In this document: one piece after another, positions 5,072-20,162 of the stretch
Layout of the letters: the number at the start of each line of letters is the position of its first letter
Numbering within the stretch: position 1 is the first letter of the stretch
IMG/VR virus record: IMGVR_UViG_3300021963_000634
Span: 1 to 24,345 of that record
Length of the DNA: 24,345 nucleotides
Origin: a virus
Direction: 5' to 3' (one strand)
Notes under the pieces: generated by a model
Told to the model about the DNA's origin: nothing
Database searches by the model: none
The model's input: only the letters and a program-made list of their open reading frames with translations
Position numbers and translations under genes: made by a program

Positions 5072-5077
5072 ATTTTA
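5072..5077 (-). promoter_or_regulatory. Candidate -10 box, possible leaderless start
   Basis: TAAAAT preceded by TTG on the minus strand, ending exactly six bases before the ATG at 5063-5065. This spacing would put the transcription start on the A of the start codon. No good -35 hexamer is seen. Spacing and flank resemble the candidate boxes at 21734 and 21160. Confidence 0.35.
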
Positions 5078-5746
5078 CAATACTATTTGTGGACATATAT
5101 AACTCTGAACCATGTGCATACCCGACAAATTATAAACGTTGTCATCCTCTGGATATAAATTAATAATATTATTTAAATCATGCACGAAATGTGGAAGTCC
5201 TAAAAAGTCATAGATTTCAGCAAGAACTTGTTCTGTATTGGCACATAGATTGTTGTAATCAACTAACAGATACGTGTTTGGGTCATCCTGTTCTAGCGCA
5301 TTACTAACCCCTGCAATAGATATAGATAGTTCGCTGGCAAATGGTGAGGATTCAAAATCGTCACGCCCGTTACGGGCAAACAACTTCTGGAAAGATTGCA
5401 CCACATCATCAACAGGGCGCACACACAGAATAACCTTTGGATTTAATGTCACATATTCCCTAACCATCTGCATATTGAGTGGCAGTGTCCATGCCCTGCA
5501 CTTATCAATTACAATCGGTTTTTGAACATCCCTGTAGTACAGAGCAGGGAGATCACGCACAACCTGTTCAGTATTGCGAGGGTTGCCATTCCACTGCTGG
5601 TTGCGCTTCACAGATTGTGATGCTGACCACATCAGATCACACAATCCTGATACACCTTCACTGTGTATTGCAGGGTTCTGCGAAAGAATGGAAGTTAAGA
5701 GTGTGCTACCGCTTCGTGGTAAGCCTGAAAGGAAATGCAGTTTCAC
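5075..5746 (-). CDS. Sulfotransferase family protein
   Basis: A 223-aa enzyme predicted to move a sulfuryl group from PAPS to a hydroxyl, often on a sugar or protein. The 5'-phosphosulfate loop is near-ideal: GLPRSGSTLL at residues 8-17. A 3'-phosphate site fits CVRPVDDVVQSF at 108-119 (R110 and S118). DKCRAW at 81-86 and YDFLGLP at 179-185 are also typical of the family. It is somewhat shorter than the usual 250-300 aa, but the C-terminal YNLSG-x-H segment (205-211) is present, so it looks intact. It starts with GTG, overlapping the upstream tail-associated gene by four bases, so it is co-expressed with adhesins. It could sulfate phage fibres or host surface glycans; the substrate cannot be read. 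Confidence 0.85.
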   Translation of the reverse strand: MKLHFLSGLPRSGSTLLTSILSQNPAIHSEGVSGLCDLMWSASQSVKRNQQWNGNPRNTEQVVRDLPALYYRDVQKPIVIDKCRAWTLPLNMQMVREYVTLNPKVILCVRPVDDVVQSFQKLFARNGRDDFESSPFASELSISIAGVSNALEQDDPNTYLLVDYNNLCANTEQVLAEIYDFLGLPHFVHDLNNIINLYPEDDNVYNLSGMHMVQSYICPQIVL

Positions 5747-6120
5747 GCAGGGCGTGTGTCAATCCAAGAAAGCGAGGACTCATCCCAAATCCAAACATCA
5801 CGCTCAACGCTGTAGTCACCTGCGAGGTTTGTCCAAGTCCAAGTGTCGTCACTAGGTTTCGGCGTTGGTGGATTCCAAATGCGATCCGCTTCATTCCATG
5901 TCCAAGAATCAAATGGTGCTGAAGGTGCAAAGGTATCTGTGTCATCAAAATAGCGACCGCCCATTAGTGCAGGGCGTTCAGGTGACGATTGCACATAAAC
6001 GAAACCATCACCAACACGGGCGTTGATTTGCTCAATCGTTGCAGAGATCACATTGACAACATTTCCATCTGCATCTACTTGCGCCCAATCAGTAGGGTCT
6101 TGAATTGTAATCTCGTTCAT
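5743..6120 (-). CDS. Trp-rich tail-associated protein, copy B
   Basis: A 125-aa protein. The N-terminus carries a DADGNVVNVISA strand motif. The C-terminal half repeats a Trp-rich unit: SWTWNEADRIWNPP, then DTWTW, then DVWIWDESSLSW. It is related to the 121-aa protein at 7705-8070, sharing the order SW-x-x-NE, W, Pro, Trp-repeat and final Pro-Ala. Similar proteins accompany tail fibres in many marine and freshwater phages, from memory, but their role is not established; a fibre-tip or assembly role is plausible. It is the last member of the second copy of a duplicated four-gene block. Stop and start overlaps with both neighbours show tight coupling. Confidence 0.65.
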   Translation of the reverse strand: MNEITIQDPTDWAQVDADGNVVNVISATIEQINARVGDGFVYVQSSPERPALMGGRYFDDTDTFAPSAPFDSWTWNEADRIWNPPTPKPSDDTWTWTNLAGDYSVERDVWIWDESSLSWIDTRPA

Positions 6121-7082
6121 AGTGCATACCTCACAATAACAATTCCTGCCGTGCCGTTTCCTCTAAAACCTTGAGTCCCTGTGCCAGCACATCCACCATT
6201 GCCCCAACCTCTAGCACCAGACACTGCCGAGTTGTATGTTGTAGAAGTTCCACCTGTATATGCTCCAACACCATCAGATGATAAAACACCCTGAAAACCT
6301 GCGTATCCGTACCCCAATCCTCCCCATGCAATAGCAAGGTTTGGATTGACAGCATTGGTATATTGGCTTGACCCTGATACAACACGCAAGTTGTCAAACA
6401 AAGGTGCATTAGTCAAATCATCAGGGAGGTTGAAGCCAACACCACAACTTCCAGCAACATCTCTGTTTCCTCCTCCGTAAGGTGCGCCTTGTGCGCCTGC
6501 TCTTGCGGCTGTAGATGCACCACCACCTGAACCACTTGCTCCTGCTTCAACATTTCGCCCAGTAGCACCAGCAAAACCCTCTGCTGGTGTATAAGAACCA
6601 GCGTTGCCAGCAGCACCTGATGCAGTCAGATATCCACCACCACCTGACCCACCAGATGACGCTGCCTGACCTGACACGCCACCACGACCACCACCAGTTG
6701 CAGAAATTGTTGTAGTTGATGTAACGATAGATGAGTTTCCACCTGCTGTTGGAACTGTGTTACTCATTGTTCCCGCAGCCCCAACCGTCACCGTGTATGT
6801 AGTACCCACAACAAATGTTGCAGCAATTAGGTTACGAACTCCACCTGCTCCACCACCACCGCCACCTGCACCTGTACCTCCACCACCTGCAACAACAATT
6901 ACATCGGCAGAAGTAACAGGCGCAGTCCAAGAACCTGACGAAGTGAAAATGTGATATTTGTGCGAAGCACCAACCCACAGAACACCGCCGCCAGCGAAAT
7001 CAGTGAAGTATGTCCTTGATGGGTTAGCCTGTTGCCAACTCTTTACATACTGACTGACAAGCGTTCTACTTCTATCAGCCAT
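6117..7082 (-). CDS. Glycine-rich tail adhesin, copy B
   Basis: A 321-aa glycine-rich protein, probably a receptor-binding tail part. It begins with a polar segment (1-40), then F-x-SSGSW (46-52) and the strand VIVVAGGGG entering the Gly core (about 65-215, many GGGG and GGAGG runs). It ends with AGIVIVRYAL. This strand-Gly core-strand plan is that of phage Gly-rich domains, in which Gly runs may pack as polyglycine-II helices as in T-even-type gp38 adhesins. It differs from its paralogues by a longer non-Gly insert (about 215-260) with two Asn-Ala-Pro-type loops. The start is ATG, 3 nt after the stop of the upstream gene. Confidence 0.75.
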   Translation of the reverse strand: MADRSRTLVSQYVKSWQQANPSRTYFTDFAGGGVLWVGASHKYHIFTSSGSWTAPVTSADVIVVAGGGGTGAGGGGGGAGGVRNLIAATFVVGTTYTVTVGAAGTMSNTVPTAGGNSSIVTSTTTISATGGGRGGVSGQAASSGGSGGGGYLTASGAAGNAGSYTPAEGFAGATGRNVEAGASGSGGGASTAARAGAQGAPYGGGNRDVAGSCGVGFNLPDDLTNAPLFDNLRVVSGSSQYTNAVNPNLAIAWGGLGYGYAGFQGVLSSDGVGAYTGGTSTTYNSAVSGARGWGNGGCAGTGTQGFRGNGTAGIVIVRYAL

Positions 7083-8081: not shown

Positions 8082-9035
8082 CTAAAAAGTAATACTGCCA
8101 GTTGCAGTAAACGTATATACATGATAGCCCGAACGAGACACCGAACTGTATGTTGGTGAACCTGTTGTAGTGTTTGCGACTGGAAATGTTGATGGGTAAG
8201 CAATAATAACTACTCCAGAACCGCCATTACCGCCACTTGTTGTACTACCACCTGCTCCACCACCTCCACCACCGCCAGTGTTTGATGTTCCTGATACACC
8301 ATTACCAGCATGGTTTCCTGCACCACCACCACCTGAACCACCAGCACCACCCGCTGTGCCACCGTTTTGCCAAGGTGAACCTCCACCACCACCTGCACGA
8401 GTTACAGCAGAACCAGTGATTGAAGAAGATGTTCCAACGCCACCAGCGCCTCCAACGCTTCCAGAACCGCCATTACCTACAGCGCCAGCACCACCACCGC
8501 CACCACCCCAGTATGGGTTTGCATTATTTCCGTTTGCGCCATTATTTCCTTGTGATGGTGTAGTAGCAGGGGTGTTACCTGCACCACCAGCACCGTCAAT
8601 GTTGCCTCCACCACCACCACCTGAACCACCTGAACCAGCGTTACCGCCACCCCTACCGTCTGCTCCACCACCGCCGCCAGCAGATGTAATGGTGCTAAAT
8701 ATAGAGTTTGAGCCACTTGCACCGTCAGATGCAGTAGTACCAGTTCCACCAGCACCAACAGTCACGGTATATGAAATACCACCCGCTACAGCAAATGCAG
8801 AATCAGTTCTATACCCACCTGCACCGCCACCACCAGTACCACGACTATCACCATTAAAAGAACCACCACCTGCACCGCCACCAGCAACTACAAGAAGTTC
8901 AATAGTAGGCGTAGTTGAACCAGGCCAGTTAAATACCCCACGTTCACGTTGAGCATCACGGATAGCCCAAATACCAGGTGCGGAAGAAGCATTTACTGTT
9001 CTTTTTGGACCAATAATGCTTCCATTAGATCGCAT
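8082..9035 (-). CDS. Glycine-rich tail adhesin, copy A
   Basis: A 317-aa Gly-rich adhesin candidate. Residues 1-40 contain APGIWAIRDAQRERG-x-x-NWP, a motif common just before adhesin domains in aquatic phages. Strand ELLVVAGGG (46-53) leads into a long Gly core to about 270 with runs of up to seven Gly. The exit strand is SGVVIIAYP, then YHVYTFTATGSITF closes the protein. No Cys is present. The ATG shares a base with the stop of 9035-9388 (TAATG). It pairs with 6117-7082 in the duplicated block and is also similar to 9867-11060, 11721-12689 and 12686-13639. Confidence 0.75.
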   Translation of the reverse strand: MRSNGSIIGPKRTVNASSAPGIWAIRDAQRERGVFNWPGSTTPTIELLVVAGGGAGGGSFNGDSRGTGGGGAGGYRTDSAFAVAGGISYTVTVGAGGTGTTASDGASGSNSIFSTITSAGGGGGADGRGGGNAGSGGSGGGGGGNIDGAGGAGNTPATTPSQGNNGANGNNANPYWGGGGGGAGAVGNGGSGSVGGAGGVGTSSSITGSAVTRAGGGGGSPWQNGGTAGGAGGSGGGGAGNHAGNGVSGTSNTGGGGGGGAGGSTTSGGNGGSGVVIIAYPSTFPVANTTTGSPTYSSVSRSGYHVYTFTATGSITF

Positions 9036-9646: not shown

Positions 9647-9867
9647 CAGGTAACCGTTCCTGCGTCAACAGGCCCCATAACATAGAATTGAAGTGTATTA
9701 GGTCTACCACCATCTAGTGTAGTGGTACTTGGCTCAATAACTACTTCTGCCAAAATCATACTAGACGTAACTAAACGCCAGGCAGAACCATCATAAACCC
9801 ATGTCTTACCACCAGAATTAAATATCTGATTGGTTGTAGGAGAATTGGGAAAATCTATAGCAGGCAT
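9646..9867 (-). CDS. Short tail-fibre-like protein
   Basis: A 73-aa protein. Residues 2-32 (IDFPNSPTTNQIF, then KTWVYDGSAWRLV) form the short 'pre-fibre' motif also found at the start of 9867-11060. The rest (VVIEPSTTTLDGG, LQFYVMGPVDAGTVT) looks like one beta unit. It probably derives from, or assembles with, fibre proteins. It shares one base with each neighbour at its start (TAATG) and end (TGATG). Confidence 0.6.
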   Translation of the reverse strand: MPAIDFPNSPTTNQIFNSGGKTWVYDGSAWRLVTSSMILAEVVIEPSTTTLDGGRPNTLQFYVMGPVDAGTVT

Positions 9868-11060
9868 TATGCGATCACCAAACTCCCTGATGCCGTGAAT
9901 GTGTGAATAGTGTAAGAACCTGACGTAGTTTTAGTGCCGCCAGTAATGGTTGCGTCTGTTGCAGATGCTGTTAAGTAGCGCACAATAACGACACCTGAAC
10001 CACCAGTGCCATTGGTGTTTGAAGACGCTGCTATCGCACTTTGCCCACCAGCGCCACCTCCTGTGTTTGCTACACCAGGGTTTCCGTTAGCACCACCGTT
10101 TCCTCCACCACCGACTCCTCCAGTACCAGGGGAACCGCCATACCCACCACCACCTCCACCGCCAGCGTAAGTTAATGATGAACCAGATATTGCTGTTACT
10201 GTTCCAACACCACCGTTCCCTCCGTTAGTTGCGGCGTTTCCTCCCACCGCACCTGCACCACCACCACCACCAGCGCCACCAGTGTTATTTCCAGTACCTC
10301 CAGCGTACCCCTGATCTGCTGTTCCTGAACCTGGAGAGTTTGACGACCAAGCACCACCACCGCCAGAACCACCCGTCATGCGAGCAGGTGCACTACGAGA
10401 ACCACCGCCACCGCCACCTATAGATGTGATTGTGTGGAACACGGAATTAGAACCATTTGCTCCGTTAGCCGATGTTGTAGTAGTTGGAGCACCACCACCA
10501 CCAATGGTTACTCCGTAGGTTCCAAAAGGAAGAAGTAACGCAGACTCTAATACACCGCCACCACCTGTTGCTGTAACAGTTGAACGAAATCCCCCTGCTC
10601 CACCGCCACCACCAATGTCTGCTCCACCGCCACCGCCTCCTGCGACAACTAAGTAATCTACAGAAATAGTGTTAGATTGTGTTATACCAAAAGACCATGC
10701 AGAGCCTAACCAAACTTTCATTTTACTTGTGTCAGTTTCAAAGATAGTTTGACCAGTAAAAGGTGACCCAGGTCGTGTACTAGAGGTACAAATTGTAATG
10801 CCCGACAACGTTGAGGCTAACTTAGCCTGCGTCACAGCGTTACTTGCAATGTCTGCCTCAACTACAGCACCTGCGGCTATTTTGGCTGTAGTGATTGCAC
10901 TATCGGCAATCTTGGCTGTAGTAACGCCCAAGTCTTGTATTTGGGCCGTAACAATCTTACCGCCAGTCATTTCCCATACAGAACCAGTCCATGTATAGGT
11001 ACGGTTGTTTACTGTGTATGTGTCATTAACAGCAGGGGAAGCAGGGAAGGAGAATGCCAT
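9867..11060 (-). CDS. Modular glycine-rich tail fibre/adhesin
   Basis: A 397-aa protein and the longest of the Gly-rich set. Modules in order: the short motif FPASPAVNDTY to TYTWTGSVWE (4-30); a repeat stretch VTTAKIADSAITTAKIAAG to about 85, a typical fibre-shaft repeat; the anchor motif ITICTSSTRPGSPFTGQ and FETDTSKMKVWLGSAW (88-122); the strand VDYLVVAGGGG (134-144); a Gly core to about 345; then SGVVIVRYL and a closing TGGTKTTSGSYTIHTF unit. The build suggests a shaft carrying an adhesive tip. AGGTAA lies upstream of the ATG. Probably determines host binding. Confidence 0.75.
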   Translation of the reverse strand: MAFSFPASPAVNDTYTVNNRTYTWTGSVWEMTGGKIVTAQIQDLGVTTAKIADSAITTAKIAAGAVVEADIASNAVTQAKLASTLSGITICTSSTRPGSPFTGQTIFETDTSKMKVWLGSAWSFGITQSNTISVDYLVVAGGGGGGADIGGGGGAGGFRSTVTATGGGGVLESALLLPFGTYGVTIGGGGAPTTTTSANGANGSNSVFHTITSIGGGGGGSRSAPARMTGGSGGGGAWSSNSPGSGTADQGYAGGTGNNTGGAGGGGGAGAVGGNAATNGGNGGVGTVTAISGSSLTYAGGGGGGGYGGSPGTGGVGGGGNGGANGNPGVANTGGGAGGQSAIAASSNTNGTGGSGVVIVRYLTASATDATITGGTKTTSGSYTIHTFTASGSLVIA

Positions 11061-11067
11061 TAGTTAC

Positions 11068-11721
11068 CTACTTTGCATACCCGTAAACAGCAATAGTGCC
11101 ACCAGTCATTGTGCTTGAACCTCCACCAGTCAAAGTAAATGCCGTGTACTGAGTTGTGTCTGCAACCATTCCACTAAACCAAAAAGAATTAGCATAACCA
11201 AATCCAGCACCAGTGACGGTGGTTCGTTTTGTCAAATTTGGGCTAAACACATCAAAGGAAAAATTTGATGCACTTGTTGTATCAGAAATACCTGCATAAA
11301 TACTTGATGAGTTGTTTCTCTTTAAAACAGAACCAGTGGTGTCATACCTATCGTAAGTAAATGTTCCATAGTATCCAGTTGTAGTTGAACCAAACGTCAA
11401 TAGTCCAACTTGGTCATTTGCTGAACAGTTCATTCCACCGAATACGACTCTATAATTGTCGTAGGTGCTGCTGAATACATTGCTTACCGTTACACTTGTT
11501 ACTGCTGTCCCAATTGTTTGGACTTTAATTAAGTCCAATCCACCTGGATTTGCCCTACCAGTAGATAGCACTACCCAACCAGTTCCGTTCCAAACCATTG
11601 CACTATCCGTGTCAGTCTCATAGATAACTTGACCGTCATATGGTGAAGCAGGGCGAGTAGTAGACGTGCAAACACCAGGTTGCATAATAGAAGATGAGCC
11701 GATAACAGAACTAAGAGGCAC
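11068..11721 (-). CDS. Tail fibre protein with anchor motif
   Basis: A 217-aa protein. It shares the anchor motif with its Gly-rich neighbours: PGVCTSTTRPASPYDGQ and YETDTDSAMVWNGTGW at residues 15-49. It then has no Gly core but a beta-rich domain (about 60-217) with STYDNYRVVFGG, an F-x-S-N-F-S-F-D segment and a C-terminal YTAFTLTGGG to GTIAVYGYAK. This C-terminal pattern is frequent in aquatic phage fibres. It starts with GTG, overlapping the previous TAG by one base. It may be an alternative tip built on the same anchor. Confidence 0.7.
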   Translation of the reverse strand: MPLSSVIGSSSIMQPGVCTSTTRPASPYDGQVIYETDTDSAMVWNGTGWVVLSTGRANPGGLDLIKVQTIGTAVTSVTVSNVFSSTYDNYRVVFGGMNCSANDQVGLLTFGSTTTGYYGTFTYDRYDTTGSVLKRNNSSSIYAGISDTTSASNFSFDVFSPNLTKRTTVTGAGFGYANSFWFSGMVADTTQYTAFTLTGGGSSTMTGGTIAVYGYAK

Positions 11722-12689
11722 TAGGCAATTACCAAACTTCCTGAACTAGTGAATGTGTGAATTGTATATGTGCCTGACGTGGTTTTTGTGCCACCAGTAA
11801 TTGTCAAACTTGATGCGTCGGATGTTAAATATCTACAAATCACAACGCCTGAACCACCTGCACCACCAGAAGGTGTTGGACCACCAAAACCGCCAGCACC
11901 ACCACCGCCACCACCAGTATTTGCTGTGCCAGCAGTACCAGCAGCAGCCCCACTTGAACCAGCACCACCTCCGCCAGAACCTCCAGCACCACCAGTGGAT
12001 GAACCAGTACCACCTCCACCACCGCCACGAGTAACTGCTGAGCCAGTTATTGAAGATGAAACACCTGCTCCACCTGCACCGCCAACTGTGTTTCCAGAAA
12101 TGTTTGGAGCGACAGCACCTGCTCCACCACCACCAGCGTATCCACCCGATGTTCCATTACCACCAGCAAAACCTTGTCCACTTGTACCAGCAGCACCAGT
12201 TGTAGTTATATTATTTGCTCCACCACCAGAACCACCGATGTTAGGTGTGTTTAATCCCGCACCACGCCCACCACCAGTGGAAGTTATAGAACTAAAAACA
12301 CTGTTTGAACCAGCCGTATCAGAAGCCCCACCGCCACCAACAGTTACTGTGTATGTACCAAGTGTAAAAACCAACGGAGATTCTATGGTCCCACCACCAC
12401 CAGTTGACTCTCCAGCGACAGAAGAACGATAACCACCAGCACCACCACCGCCACCGCTGTAAGTAGAACCATCTGTTTTTCCACCACCGCCACCACCAGC
12501 GATAGTTAGGTATTCAACACTTATGCCAGAAATATGTTTGTAGCCATTTGACCACCCAGAACCAACCCATACTTTTTGCAATAAAGTATCGGTCTCAAAG
12601 ATCATCATTCCAATATACGGGTTAGCAGGACGACTAGTAGAAGTGCAAACTCCTGGGCGCATACCCTTATCTGATGCTGAAATACTCAT
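11721..12689 (-). CDS. Glycine-rich tail adhesin
   Basis: A 322-aa paralogue. Order of parts: the anchor motif RPGVCTSTSRPANPYIG and FETDTLLQKVWVGSGWS (11-48); the strand VEYLTIAGGGG (58-68); a Gly core (68 to about 283); SGVVICRYL; and a closing TGGTKTTSGTYTIHTF unit. One Cys lies in the exit strand (VVICRY), where the paralogues have Val. The start overlaps the next gene's stop as ATGA. Very similar layout to 12686-13639 indicates recent tandem duplication. Confidence 0.75.
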   Translation of the reverse strand: MSISASDKGMRPGVCTSTSRPANPYIGMMIFETDTLLQKVWVGSGWSNGYKHISGISVEYLTIAGGGGGGKTDGSTYSGGGGGAGGYRSSVAGESTGGGGTIESPLVFTLGTYTVTVGGGGASDTAGSNSVFSSITSTGGGRGAGLNTPNIGGSGGGANNITTTGAAGTSGQGFAGGNGTSGGYAGGGGAGAVAPNISGNTVGGAGGAGVSSSITGSAVTRGGGGGGTGSSTGGAGGSGGGGAGSSGAAAGTAGTANTGGGGGGAGGFGGPTPSGGAGGSGVVICRYLTSDASSLTITGGTKTTSGTYTIHTFTSSGSLVIA

Positions 12690-13639
12690 GCGATTACCAA
12701 ACTACCAGAGGATGTGAACGTGTGAATTGTATAGGAACCTGATGTGGTTTTAGTTCCACCAGTGACAGTTAAACCTGATGCTGTTCCAGTGTCATAACGG
12801 ACAATAACAACACCAGAACCACCAGACGTTGCACTTCCACCACCACCGCCACTACCACTATTTACTGTTGCTGATGTACCACCACCACTAACACCACCAT
12901 TACCACCACCTGCTTGACCAGTACCACCAGTAGCGCTTGCGTAGTAACCACCACCGCCACCTCCAGCACGAGCAACGCCTGTTCCAGTTATATTAGATGT
13001 AACACCGTTACCACCATTACCAGCAGCATTTCCAGCACCAGCGACACCGACAGAGCCAGCGCCTCCACCGCCACCTGCTGGTCCCACGTTTGCTACACCG
13101 TTAGCGATACCACCTGCATAACCTTGTCCACCAGTTCCAGCACCTGCGGCAAGTGAGCCACCTCCAGTTCCACCGCCACCACCTCCAGAACCTCCAGCAT
13201 TACCTACTGCTTCACCATTACCACCTTTTCCACCTCCAGTTGAAGTAATAGTTGAAAAAACTGAATTAGAACCATTAGAGTTTGAACCACCAGCACCAAC
13301 AGTGACCGTATAAGTTCCTACAGTCAGAGCCAAAGTAGATTCAGCACTTGCTCCACCGCCACTACTTTCCCCAACTACAGAAGAACGGTAACCGCCAGCA
13401 CCTCCACCAGCGCCATAACTTGTACCACCACCGCCACCTCCAGCGATAACAAGGTATTCAACAGGTAAATTAATGCTTTGCTTTATACCTGTTGACCAAC
13501 CACCAGACAAATACACTTTCCACAAACCTGTGTCTGTTTCAAAGATGTGTTGACCTACAAAAGGTGAAGCAGGGCGAGTAGTGCTAGTGCATACACCTGT
13601 TCTAATAGAACCAAGACCGTAAGCAGAACTAAGAGACAT
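12686..13639 (-). CDS. Glycine-rich tail adhesin
   Basis: A 317-aa paralogue of 11721-12689. The anchor motif is TGVCTSTTRPASPFVGQ and FETDTGLWKVYLSGGWS (14-49). The strand VEYLVIAGGGG opens the Gly core (to about 278), then SGVVIVRYD, LTVTGGTKTTSGSYTIHTF and SGSLVIA. Its first residues MSLSSAYG resemble the MPLSSVIG opening of 11068-11721. It follows the small beta protein 13639-13977 with a one-base overlap (TAATG). Confidence 0.75.
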   Translation of the reverse strand: MSLSSAYGLGSIRTGVCTSTTRPASPFVGQHIFETDTGLWKVYLSGGWSTGIKQSINLPVEYLVIAGGGGGGTSYGAGGGAGGYRSSVVGESSGGGASAESTLALTVGTYTVTVGAGGSNSNGSNSVFSTITSTGGGKGGNGEAVGNAGGSGGGGGGTGGGSLAAGAGTGGQGYAGGIANGVANVGPAGGGGGAGSVGVAGAGNAAGNGGNGVTSNITGTGVARAGGGGGGYYASATGGTGQAGGGNGGVSGGGTSATVNSGSGGGGGSATSGGSGVVIVRYDTGTASGLTVTGGTKTTSGSYTIHTFTSSGSLVIA

Positions 13640-17861: not shown

Positions 17862-18026
17862 CTATTCTTTGCCTTTAAATAAAGCCCCTATCAAGTGGAC
17901 ACCAAGAGAGGCAATGGTAATCCATATGCCCAATTTAAGAGTTTGACCACTAAGGGTAATTAGAACCATGCCCGTTCCACCCAGTGTCCAAGCCAATGCG
18001 TGCAATTCATTAATAAGTTTTTTCAC
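17862..18026 (-). CDS. Small two-helix membrane protein (54 aa)
   Basis: A 54-aa frame starting with GTG at 18024-18026, with AGGAG five bases upstream. It has two hydrophobic segments (about residues 8-26 and 32-50) separated by a short Ser-Gly-Gln turn, Lys residues at both ends (KKL near the start, KGKE at the end), and no Cys. This is a holin-like or other small membrane protein shape. It lies just after the secreted surface protein (27-nt gap) and before the baseplate-like gene, far from the lysis cassette. The good ribosome site, sense direction and hydrophobic pattern make it a credible gene. Possible roles are a second holin, or a helper for the secreted protein. Confidence 0.65.
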   Translation of the reverse strand: MKKLINELHALAWTLGGTGMVLITLSGQTLKLGIWITIASLGVHLIGALFKGKE

Positions 18027-18053: not shown

Positions 18054-19601
18054 TTATCTACGTCTAGAAACGACTGGTGCGGGTAATACAAATGATACCG
18101 TAGTGGCGGCTACCACGACACGGCGAGCACCTACGGAGATAACTGAATCCGTAGGAACGTAACTATCAAAGCCACCCTCAAAGACGTTAATTTCTTCCTC
18201 AAAGGCTTCCTTTACTTCTGTTGGCGCATCTTGTACGGCATCAACAATTGCCTGTGCTTGTTCTCCAGTTAACTCGCCAGTATCTACTGTAGCGAAAATC
18301 TCAGTTGCTTGGTCAGCAGTTACATTTTCCAGAACGGCTGCGCTGGTAGCAAGTTGGGTTGCTTGGTCGCTAGAGATTTCTGTAGCCAAGATGGTGTCCA
18401 CAACTTCTTGAACTTGTTCTTGGGTAATGCTGTCTGACTCCAAGATACCTAATACTTCGTCTAAAATCTCTGCCGTAATCTCAGTAAGGTTGTCCAAATT
18501 TTCCACCACAGCATCCACAATGGCTTGAACCTGTTCTTCTGTGATGTTGTCGGAGTTAAGGGCATCTACAACTTCTGACAAAACTTCTGGGGTAATTTCT
18601 TCAATAGTAGTTAATTCTTCAACTACAGCCGCCACTTCTTCCTCTGTCAATGGCTCTAAATTTGGCTCTAAATTTGGCTCTAAATTTGGCTCTAACGTTG
18701 TTGTGGTTGTTTCTTCAACGGTAGTCTCAGGGTATGTTTCAGTTGTTGTGGTCTCTGGTTCAGTTGTTGTGGTTGTTTCTTCTGGAAGCGTCGTTTCTGG
18801 CGTGGGTTCCTCTACTACTGTCGTTGTGGTGCCTGTCGGCACTTCAACGGGCGGTTCAAACACGGGAGGCAATGTAGATGAAGTTGTTGTGGTGGTGCTT
18901 GTTGTATTCTCCACTAACGTGGTACTTGGTTCTGGCACTGTTGTGGAAGTTGAGGAAGTCGTTGTCGTCTGAGGCTCAGTCGTAGATGTTGACGTTTCTT
19001 GCGGTAGTGTCGTGGTCGTTGTTGATTCTGGCAATGTTGTTTGGGGTACGGAAGAAGTAGTCGTTGTAGAACTGGTGGTTGTAGAAGTAGTTGTAGAAGA
19101 AGTAGTTGTAGTCGTGGAAGACGTAGTTGTAGTTTGTGAAATACCGTTCCACAAAGACAAATTACTAATTGTTAAATGACCTGGTTGACAGCATGAGTCC
19201 AGTGAGTACTGACGGAACGTGAACACGTCACCCTCGCTGACGCTGATTGACCCTGAACCTGACGCATTGCTTTGGTTCGTGAGTTGCGTATACACCCCGT
19301 TTACACCTATCTGCGGTGGGTCAAAGTATGCGCCGTCATTGGTTTGATATGACCACAAGAAATCTATTGTGTCTACATCTGCTGGAATTGTGGTCTCAAT
19401 TTTGACCCAGTTTGCACCAGGGCAACCGTCAGGTCCATGCAGGGTAATGGTGTTGTCTACTACTTCAACTGAACCGTTGCAGGGAATTGATTCGCTATAT
19501 GTCCATTCACCTAAAGCGTCTGCCTTAACAGATGTAACTGGTGCAAACCAAGCCAAGAGCGCTACGGGAAAGTAAAACCAAAATCCTTTACGAAGTTTCA
19601 T
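18054..19601 (-). CDS. Secreted mucin-like surface protein
   Basis: A 515-aa protein that looks exported and anchored. It has a signal peptide (KLRK, then a hydrophobic core at about 7-22, probable cut after VKA or ADA at 27-29). An N-domain (30-152) carries four Cys (C41, C60, C137, C138) and a jelly-roll-like pattern (IDFLWSYQTNDG, GDVFTFR, GHLTISNLSL). A Thr/Ser-rich stalk (155 to about 317) includes a four-fold LEPN repeat. Helical repeats follow (about 318-480, units like TEEQVQAIVDAV). The end (about 491-512) is hydrophobic and followed by Arg-Arg-Arg. The stalk would suit O-glycosylation. Such proteins are typical of actinobacterial cell surfaces, so it may be host-derived; its use in a virion or on the infected cell is open. 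AGGA precedes the ATG. Confidence 0.7.
   Translation of the reverse strand: MKLRKGFWFYFPVALLAWFAPVTSVKADALGEWTYSESIPCNGSVEVVDNTITLHGPDGCPGANWVKIETTIPADVDTIDFLWSYQTNDGAYFDPPQIGVNGVYTQLTNQSNASGSGSISVSEGDVFTFRQYSLDSCCQPGHLTISNLSLWNGISQTTTTSSTTTTTSSTTTSTTTSSTTTTSSVPQTTLPESTTTTTLPQETSTSTTEPQTTTTSSTSTTVPEPSTTLVENTTSTTTTTSSTLPPVFEPPVEVPTGTTTTVVEEPTPETTLPEETTTTTEPETTTTETYPETTVEETTTTTLEPNLEPNLEPNLEPLTEEEVAAVVEELTTIEEITPEVLSEVVDALNSDNITEEQVQAIVDAVVENLDNLTEITAEILDEVLGILESDSITQEQVQEVVDTILATEISSDQATQLATSAAVLENVTADQATEIFATVDTGELTGEQAQAIVDAVQDAPTEVKEAFEEEINVFEGGFDSYVPTDSVISVGARRVVVAATTVSFVLPAPVVSRRR
18651..18696 (-). repeat. 12-bp tandem repeat in surface-protein stalk
   Basis: TGGCTCTAAATT is present three full times and once in part (plus-strand reading). 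Period 12 keeps the frame and encodes the Leu-Glu-Pro-Asn unit. Identical copies suggest recent slippage expansion; copy number could vary between relatives. Confidence 0.85.
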
Positions 19602-19615
19602 GTGTGTCCTTAGTC

Positions 19616-19646
19616 ACAAAAACGGGCCGCTCGCAAGCAACCCGTT
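19616..19646 (-). terminator. Intrinsic terminator/attenuator hairpin
   Basis: On the minus strand the stem is AACGGGTTGCT, loop TGCG, then AGCGGCCCGTT, followed by TTT (five U in a row in RNA, counting the end of the stem). All 11 positions pair, two as G-U, and the loop is of UNCG type. It lies after 19698-20162 and 15 nt before the start codon of the secreted-protein gene. The candidate promoter at 19670-19698 lies upstream of it. It may terminate the upstream operon, control the surface-protein gene by attenuation, or stabilise its mRNA 5' end. Confidence 0.75.
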
Positions 19647-19669
19647 CGTGAGAGAAAACCTCGTGTTAA

Positions 19670-19698
19670 AGTATAACATACACCTACTACTTTGTAAT
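19670..19698 (-). promoter_or_regulatory. Candidate extended -10 promoter for surface gene
   Basis: -35 ATTACA (19693-19698), 17-nt spacer, -10 TATACT (19670-19675) with an upstream TGT (extended -10). It begins right at the stop codon of the preceding gene. A start near 19663 would give a leader of about 60 nt holding the hairpin 19621-19646 and the AGGA ribosome site. The same ATTACA hexamer appears 16 nt before the -10 at 21734. Confidence 0.45.
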
Positions 19699-20162
19699 TA
19701 AAGGTTTTTAAGGTACGTTTCTCCGTCTTCTTCTGCCCAATTCACCATATGCTGGCGCAGTTCTTCTGGTCCTATTGTTTTTGGCGAATTATTCTCGTAA
19801 TCGTGTAATGGGATAAAGGCTACTGCGCTATCTGGATTAGACGCATGTGCAATGTCTATTCCCCCACCTTTGTAACGACCTATCCAATTCCCGTAAGAAA
19901 ACTTTACATGAGGTTGTGAAGATTCATCAATACTGATGTTTTGTATATCGTGACCAGCAGATGTTAAACGGTTGATAATGTCTGAACGATTATTATAGCG
20001 GTCTTCGTCAGTCCGTGCATAATGAACTTCAGATGAGCCACAGTATGAACATTTTTTATTATTTCCCATTCCAAAATGATTGCTGTTACCAGTTGCACCA
20101 CATCCGTAACATTCTTGGTCATGGTTTCCAGAACCAGAATTAAAATGTTCGTTACGACTCAT
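19698..20162 (-). CDS. Zinc-ribbon protein, unknown function
   Basis: A 154-aa protein. Two CxxC pairs (C18/C21 and C38/C41) form a likely zinc ribbon in a Gly/Asn/His-rich N-terminus. The remainder carries NWIGRYKGGGIDIAH (residues 92-106) and IGPEELRQHMVNWAEE near the C-terminus. The pattern W, then Arg/Lys-Tyr/Trp, GG, Ile-His/Ala, then Pro-Glu-Glu-Leu is echoed in 20525-20995, suggesting a shared domain. AGAGG lies six bases before the ATG; the start overlaps the upstream gene by 11 nt. It is the last gene before a strong terminator. It might be a nucleic-acid-binding or protein-binding factor; not recognised further. Confidence 0.6.
   Translation of the reverse strand: MSRNEHFNSGSGNHDQECYGCGATGNSNHFGMGNNKKCSYCGSSEVHYARTDEDRYNNRSDIINRLTSAGHDIQNISIDESSQPHVKFSYGNWIGRYKGGGIDIAHASNPDSAVAFIPLHDYENNSPKTIGPEELRQHMVNWAEEDGETYLKNL

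Follow-up and report, generated by a model that had tools for sequence, protein, structure and literature searches.

A phage gene family that may display exchangeable adhesive tips on the surface of infected actinobacteria

Why would an apparent actinophage encode a large protein built for export and membrane anchoring, and would that protein act on the infected cell, in the virion or in lysis? The question arises from a gene in virus record IMGVR_UViG_3300021963_000634, a 24,345-bp linear, actinophage-like contig that was analyzed over its whole length and is referred to here as the window. The open reading frame (ORF) at 18054-19601 is real: the ribosome site AAGGA precedes its ATG, and the encoded architecture lies far beyond chance because it recurs in 132 distinct viral sequences. 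The features of the locus, in the order of its coding strand, are as follows.

19670..19698, minus strand: promoter-like site ATTACA-17-TATACT upstream of the surface-protein gene; a consensus match only, with 5 in the region against 6.2 expected
19621..19646, minus strand: leader with a GC-rich hairpin and then a T run, ~16 bases before the start codon (z = -2.97 for 19590-19700)
18054..19601, minus strand: surface-protein ORF, ATG start, 515 aa (ORF call, family comparison)
19521..19601, minus strand: signal peptide-like N-terminus, residues 1-27, predicted cut between VKA and D (sequence, hydropathy)
19137..19520, minus strand: N-domain or tip, residues 28-155, a swappable beta jelly-roll of the CBM/MAM type (AlphaFold, Foldseek, VIA-align)
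18651..19136, minus strand: Thr/Ser/Pro/Glu-rich stalk with NLEP repeats at its end, residues 156-317 (composition, tandem repeat)
18192..18650, minus strand: alpha-helical solenoid, residues 318-470 (AlphaFold mean pLDDT 81.8; weak armadillo-like match)
18120..18218, minus strand: near-invariant anchor motif, residues 462-494, overlapping the solenoid by its first nine residues (two alignments of the family)
18057..18119, minus strand: hydrophobic membrane segment and RRR, residues 495-515 (sequence, hydropathy)
17862..18026, minus strand: partner gene directly downstream, 54 aa with two hydrophobic segments (phrog_29041)

By hydropathy, the window protein begins with a Sec-like signal peptide, MKLRKGFWFYFPVALLAWFAPVTSVKA, cut before D, and a hydrophobic N-terminal stretch with at least one Lys or Arg ahead of it is found in 96 of 98 family members (90% non-redundant; scored by a hydropathy rule, not SignalP). 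The tip that follows contains four cysteines, at residues 41, 60, 137 and 138. Residues 156-305 of the stalk are 48% Thr, 13% Ser and 11% Pro with no Lys or Arg at all, and its coding region includes a 12-bp tandem repeat (18651-18695, 3.8 copies). AlphaFold folds the helical part into a solenoid of ten helices with pLDDT mostly near 90, the C-terminal helix (173-187) being of low confidence, and a Foldseek search of the solenoid returned nothing below E 0.001. Pfam matches on this part to GatB_Yqey, MMS19 and similar families were dismissed as driven by its acidic helical repeats. The GatB/YqeY match scores 31.4 bits against a cut-off of 27, spans only 54 residues of these repeats, and is taken as repeat-driven because other helical families match too and the protein is secreted; weak PADLOC matches to Drt8 and OloA fall on the same repeats. 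The original prediction, made from the letters alone, had proposed a signal peptide, a Thr/Ser-rich stalk, helical repeats and a hydrophobic C-terminal anchor with RRR, and all four are borne out; the disulfide-type N-domain that it also named is present, with four cysteines that may form disulfides. Its likening of the protein to a mucin holds for the stalk, but the whole protein is better likened to a fibrillar adhesin or flocculin. The two-TM partner gene, the promoter-like site and the hairpin leader were absent from that prediction.

Beyond the solenoid, the motif EVKEAFEEEINVFxGxFDxYVPxxSxxxVGxRR leads directly into the hydrophobic segment, and this region has invariant residues across proteins with little other similarity. 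The hydrophobic end itself, VVVAATTVSFVLPAPVV followed by SRRR, is conserved, and most unfused members have at least two basic residues at the C-terminus. A test for a sortase signal found neither LPXTG nor a Gram_pos_anchor match in the window protein, which ends in YVPTDSVISVGARR-TM-RRR. The anchor went unrecognized in the Pfam, NCBIfam and PHROGs searches made; NCBIfam gave nothing above cut-off for the window protein, and the PHROG search returned no match. The overall plan suggests a fibrillar adhesin-like architecture, with a CBM-like tip as candidate adhesive domain, a long stalk of 150 residues, a putative signal peptide for export and a putative transmembrane segment for anchoring, both assigned by hydropathy, the anchor being of no known type.

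The anchor is accompanied by a small two-TM protein. The partner in the window matches phrog_29041 (E 4.8e-14), a PHROGs entry that has neither a function nor a link to a surface protein; this was its sole match, with none to a holin family or to Pfam. Across the 132 distinct members, the partner is encoded separately in 100 and fused to the C-terminus in 30, and it is never missing where the sequence has room for it. Genes that are neighbors in some members and fused in others classically point to proteins that work in physical contact. One group of fused genes has a ribosome-site-like AAGGAGG and an ATG in frame ahead of the two-TM part, which is suggestive of a free form being made as well; against resampled synonymous codons, the best single sequences give p 0.03-0.09, and the other fused group has no such site. 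Two variations of this arrangement were observed. In L087 (8351-11565), a gene for an LPXTG protein sits between the family gene and the two-TM partner, whereas the close relative L084 has the partner directly. In the L076/L011 group (L076:10648-13072), glycosyltransferase-like, PhyH dioxygenase and methyltransferase genes come straight after the two-TM gene, and these enzymes are possibly surface-modifying.

A single protein query retrieved 72 viral loci, and an alignment of the C-terminal domain as query extended the family to at least 213 viral stretches; architecture and partner counts given here refer to the 132 distinct members, and signal peptide counts to the 98 non-redundant ones. Among 50,697 phage records, the only convincing named relative is DSL-LC01, where the gene is annotated as hypothetical. 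DSL-LC01 was assembled from a lake metagenome and is predicted to infect Actinomycetia (PMC10611076). The large terminase (TerL) of the window is nearest to those of Streptomyces phages (46% identity over 95%), and the window also encodes a VanY-type peptidase and a holin-like gene (phrog_443). Given the TerL relationship and the predicted host of the sole named relative, an actinobacterial host is likely, in keeping with the actinobacterial link drawn originally. Two scans of 84,980 bacterial and archaeal species genomes with short exact or near-exact peptide patterns found no relative of the anchor or of the window tip, no family relative was found on plasmids, and our literature search found no paper describing the family. 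The family thus appears to be large, undescribed and virus-only. The original prediction had implied borrowing from a host wall protein and had named a lack of host-surface homologues as evidence against itself; the absence of cellular homologues in these pattern scans weakens that idea, although other members carry tip domains that are frequent in cellular adhesins (PA14, L-type lectin).

The tip is the variable part of the protein. The 128-residue window tip is modeled by AlphaFold as a beta jelly-roll (pLDDT 88.1), and its best VIA-align match is the C-terminal domain of the protease VesC (Z 12.2, 111 residues, 2.4 A). CBM51, CBM16, CBM29, an evolved CBM4 and a hyaluronan-binding module follow at Z 8.0-9.5, MAM domains are also among the neighbors (Z 8-9.5), and the tailspikes TSP4 and K2-2 appear among the Foldseek and VIA-align matches. 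As sequence identity to these structures is ~10%, the comparison tells the fold and not the ligand, and a CBM-like fold would be no proof of sugar binding. A PDB sequence search with the N-terminal 155 residues gave no match. On one constant anchor, the 132 distinct members carry jelly-roll, PA14, PPC, fn3, L-type lectin (E 5.7e-43) and SUEL lectin tips. Replacement can be followed between two genomes, G001 and G002, whose proteins are mostly 90-100% identical: the alignment runs at 91% identity from upstream to 67 bases inside the gene, is lost for ~480 bases and resumes at 96-97%, so that the exchange falls exactly between signal peptide and stalk. Parts of the tail-fibre-like genes differ between the same genomes, indicating that both classes of surface-contact gene diversify. 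In a comparison of tip type with the upstream tail region, 35% aligned in same-tip pairs and 19% in different-tip pairs (16 such pairs, half with one frameshifted ORF). The window's tip type occurs in 97 ORFs of the loci, of which 85 have the anchor and the others are cut by contig ends or frameshifts; none of the 97 is a tail protein. Some tip ORFs stop prematurely, within the Thr-rich stalk or beyond it, and are apparently frameshifted (L221:7881-9002, L183:2651-3235, L169:575-1225); assembly errors or switching by repeat slippage could be the cause.

The strongest argument for where such tips act comes from sister proteins. At least six loci (L019, L020, L021, L025, L027, L087) encode a second protein whose tip is homologous to those of long family members, with 54-61% identity over ~170-310 aa to L042, L066, L030 and others. 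The second protein consists of a signal peptide, the tip, a Thr-rich stalk, LPITG or LPVTG, a hydrophobic segment and a basic tail, and in L019 it exceeds the curated cut-offs of Pfam Gram_pos_anchor (27.2 against 20 bits) and TIGR01167 (26.4 against 15.9). Sortase substrates are displayed on the cell wall, so the site of action of such tips would be the cell surface rather than the virion, an argument that rests on the tips of other members and not on the window's own. Other phage proteins with LPXTG-like ends, unrelated to the family tip, are also encoded near family genes (L012:8240-9697, L024:8371-9741, L086:10625-12058, L015:7364-8920), and three of the four match Ig-like domains (Big_1) weakly.

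By these comparisons, the reading of the window protein as a host-surface protein is well supported by inference. We consider it probable that two phage genes make up a host-surface system, of which this protein is the display component, serving as a fibrillar adhesin on the infected cell. That it is instead part of the virion, as a fibre or decoration protein encoded among tail genes, would be a very improbable alternative. Tail-fibre-like genes do come after the surface-protein gene in the window, and jelly-roll folds are common in tailspikes too, as the matches to TSP4 and K2-2 illustrate. Nevertheless, the protein has a membrane segment and a two-TM partner, the signal peptide-like start is nearly universal in the family, there is no PHROG match, and every one of the 97 tip ORFs is a family member or a truncated one; the homologous tips of other members, moreover, are found on sortase substrates. 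The original view that this is a surface protein and no virion part is supported by the family-wide signal peptides and by the tip domains that family members share with LPXTG proteins; the coating, receptor masking and cell-cell contact that it listed are guesses. A role in lysis draws on gene order. Of 100 members whose sequence extends far enough, 72 have a VanY endolysin or holin-like gene within 3 kb downstream on the same strand, and VanY alone is near the family gene in 52% against 15.5% at random positions in the same loci, counts that, like those for promoters, are not independent because relatives share ancestry. This order is compatible with a lysis accessory, the two-TM protein acting as holin or antiholin and the large one, bound to wall glycans from within, as its membrane-wall tether or timer. 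The obligatory coupling to a small two-TM protein and the internal start that might release it from one fused group would also suit such a role. We regard it as unlikely, since a holin-like gene (phrog_443) is already present separately in these phages, as is another one-TM protein, 30 members have the two-TM part permanently fused to an ectodomain of 500-1500 aa, which would be odd for a holin, and lectin and PA14 tips together with LPXTG sister proteins point outward. In the window, moreover, the unit is 17 kb from the endolysin and holin-like genes, which lie downstream on the same strand.

Transcription of the family genes may be separate from that of their neighbors. Of 98 members, 20 have a -10-like box at 4-8 nt ahead of the start codon, against 37 of 1007 other genes. 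Leaderless actinobacterial transcripts show this arrangement, and the counts suggest separate and often leaderless transcription. The leader in the window, which by eye resembles those of its relatives in L152 and L090, looks attenuator-like, with no obvious regulator.

For the display system, we envisage expression late in infection followed by Sec export of the surface protein. The C-terminal segment and the two-TM partner would then form a membrane bundle that retains the protein in the cytoplasmic membrane, and the stalk of ~150 residues, perhaps O-mannosylated by the host, would be long enough to cross a Gram-positive wall, placing the tip beyond it to bind glycans there. One feature sits uneasily with this scheme: the proposed topology would leave the basic RR that precedes the hydrophobic segment outside the cell, an unusual position. 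Within the display reading, the use that we rank first, at close to an even chance, is the hiding or occupying of glycans on the surface, which would keep other phages as well as the phage's own progeny from adsorbing to the cell or its debris. Adhesion of the infected cell to neighbors or particles shortly before lysis is a less likely second, and a role in lysis comes third. Attachment might instead be ecological cargo, an adhesin that alters dispersal by fixing infected cells to algae, particles or grazers, with no role in superinfection. The order of N-terminal adhesive domain and C-terminal anchor, as in Gram-positive fibrillar adhesins (PMC8286594), and swapped tips that imply changing ligands are in its favor, but adjacency to lysis genes implies very late expression that would leave little time for attachment to matter, and we judge this somewhat less probable again than the lysis accessory. 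More broadly, and at slightly less than even odds, the display system could be a virus-only device of actinobacteriophages, with a two-component anchor and exchangeable lectin-like tips deployed on the infected cell around lysis and diversified like tail-fibre tips, that controls who adsorbs or sticks to the dying cell.

The usual view is that lytic phages change the surface of their host little ahead of lysis, and most phage proteins known to act there are small. The streptococcal phage proteins PblA and PblB are phage-encoded, occur on the bacterial surface and mediate adhesion, but they are tail proteins. Similar in design are the fibrillar adhesins of bacteria, anchored by LPXTG or otherwise, which likewise combine an N-terminal adhesive domain, a long stalk and a C-terminal surface anchor and count PA14 among their adhesive domains (PMC8286594). 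Here, however, the protein is phage-encoded, and an undescribed solenoid-motif-TM anchor with an obligatory two-TM partner stands in place of a sortase motif, SLH or CHU_C. The yeast PA14 flocculins Flo1 and Flo5 share a carbohydrate-binding tip (PA14 in some members here), a Ser/Thr-rich stalk and a C-terminal anchor (PMC6308950, PMC6218569); theirs is a GPI anchor on a eukaryotic cell, and stalk and anchor are without homology. A functional parallel is Llp of phage T5, which blocks the phage's own receptor during infection, and related superinfection-exclusion lipoproteins (PMC9586334): a phage product made during infection, exported and acting on the host envelope to stop further adsorption is shown for Llp and proposed here. 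Llp, though, is small, a lipoprotein of the periplasm that jams FhuA allosterically, in contrast to a large, modular, stalked and TM-anchored protein in a probably monoderm host. The present family is large and widespread, its proteins are built in the manner of bacterial adhesins, and the phages that carry it apparently infect freshwater actinobacteria. These bacteria are abundant and hard to culture. If the display reading is true, infected cells would receive a new coat late in infection, with consequences for superinfection, for the loss of progeny to debris and for natural plankton aggregation. The anchor and its partner form a compact pair for laboratory study, and as cultured Planktophila phages exist (PMC10202952), the host side is becoming testable.

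The window holds two further observations on its tail region. A sulfotransferase gene (5075-5746, minus strand; Pfam Sulfotransfer_3, E 3.6e-16) lies amid the tail-fibre-like genes, and five clustered Gly-rich, tail-tip-like proteins are encoded on the minus strand at 6117-7082, 8082-9035, 9867-11060, 11721-12689 and 12686-13639. The five are apparently paralogous, and the product of 9867-11060 matches PF21722.
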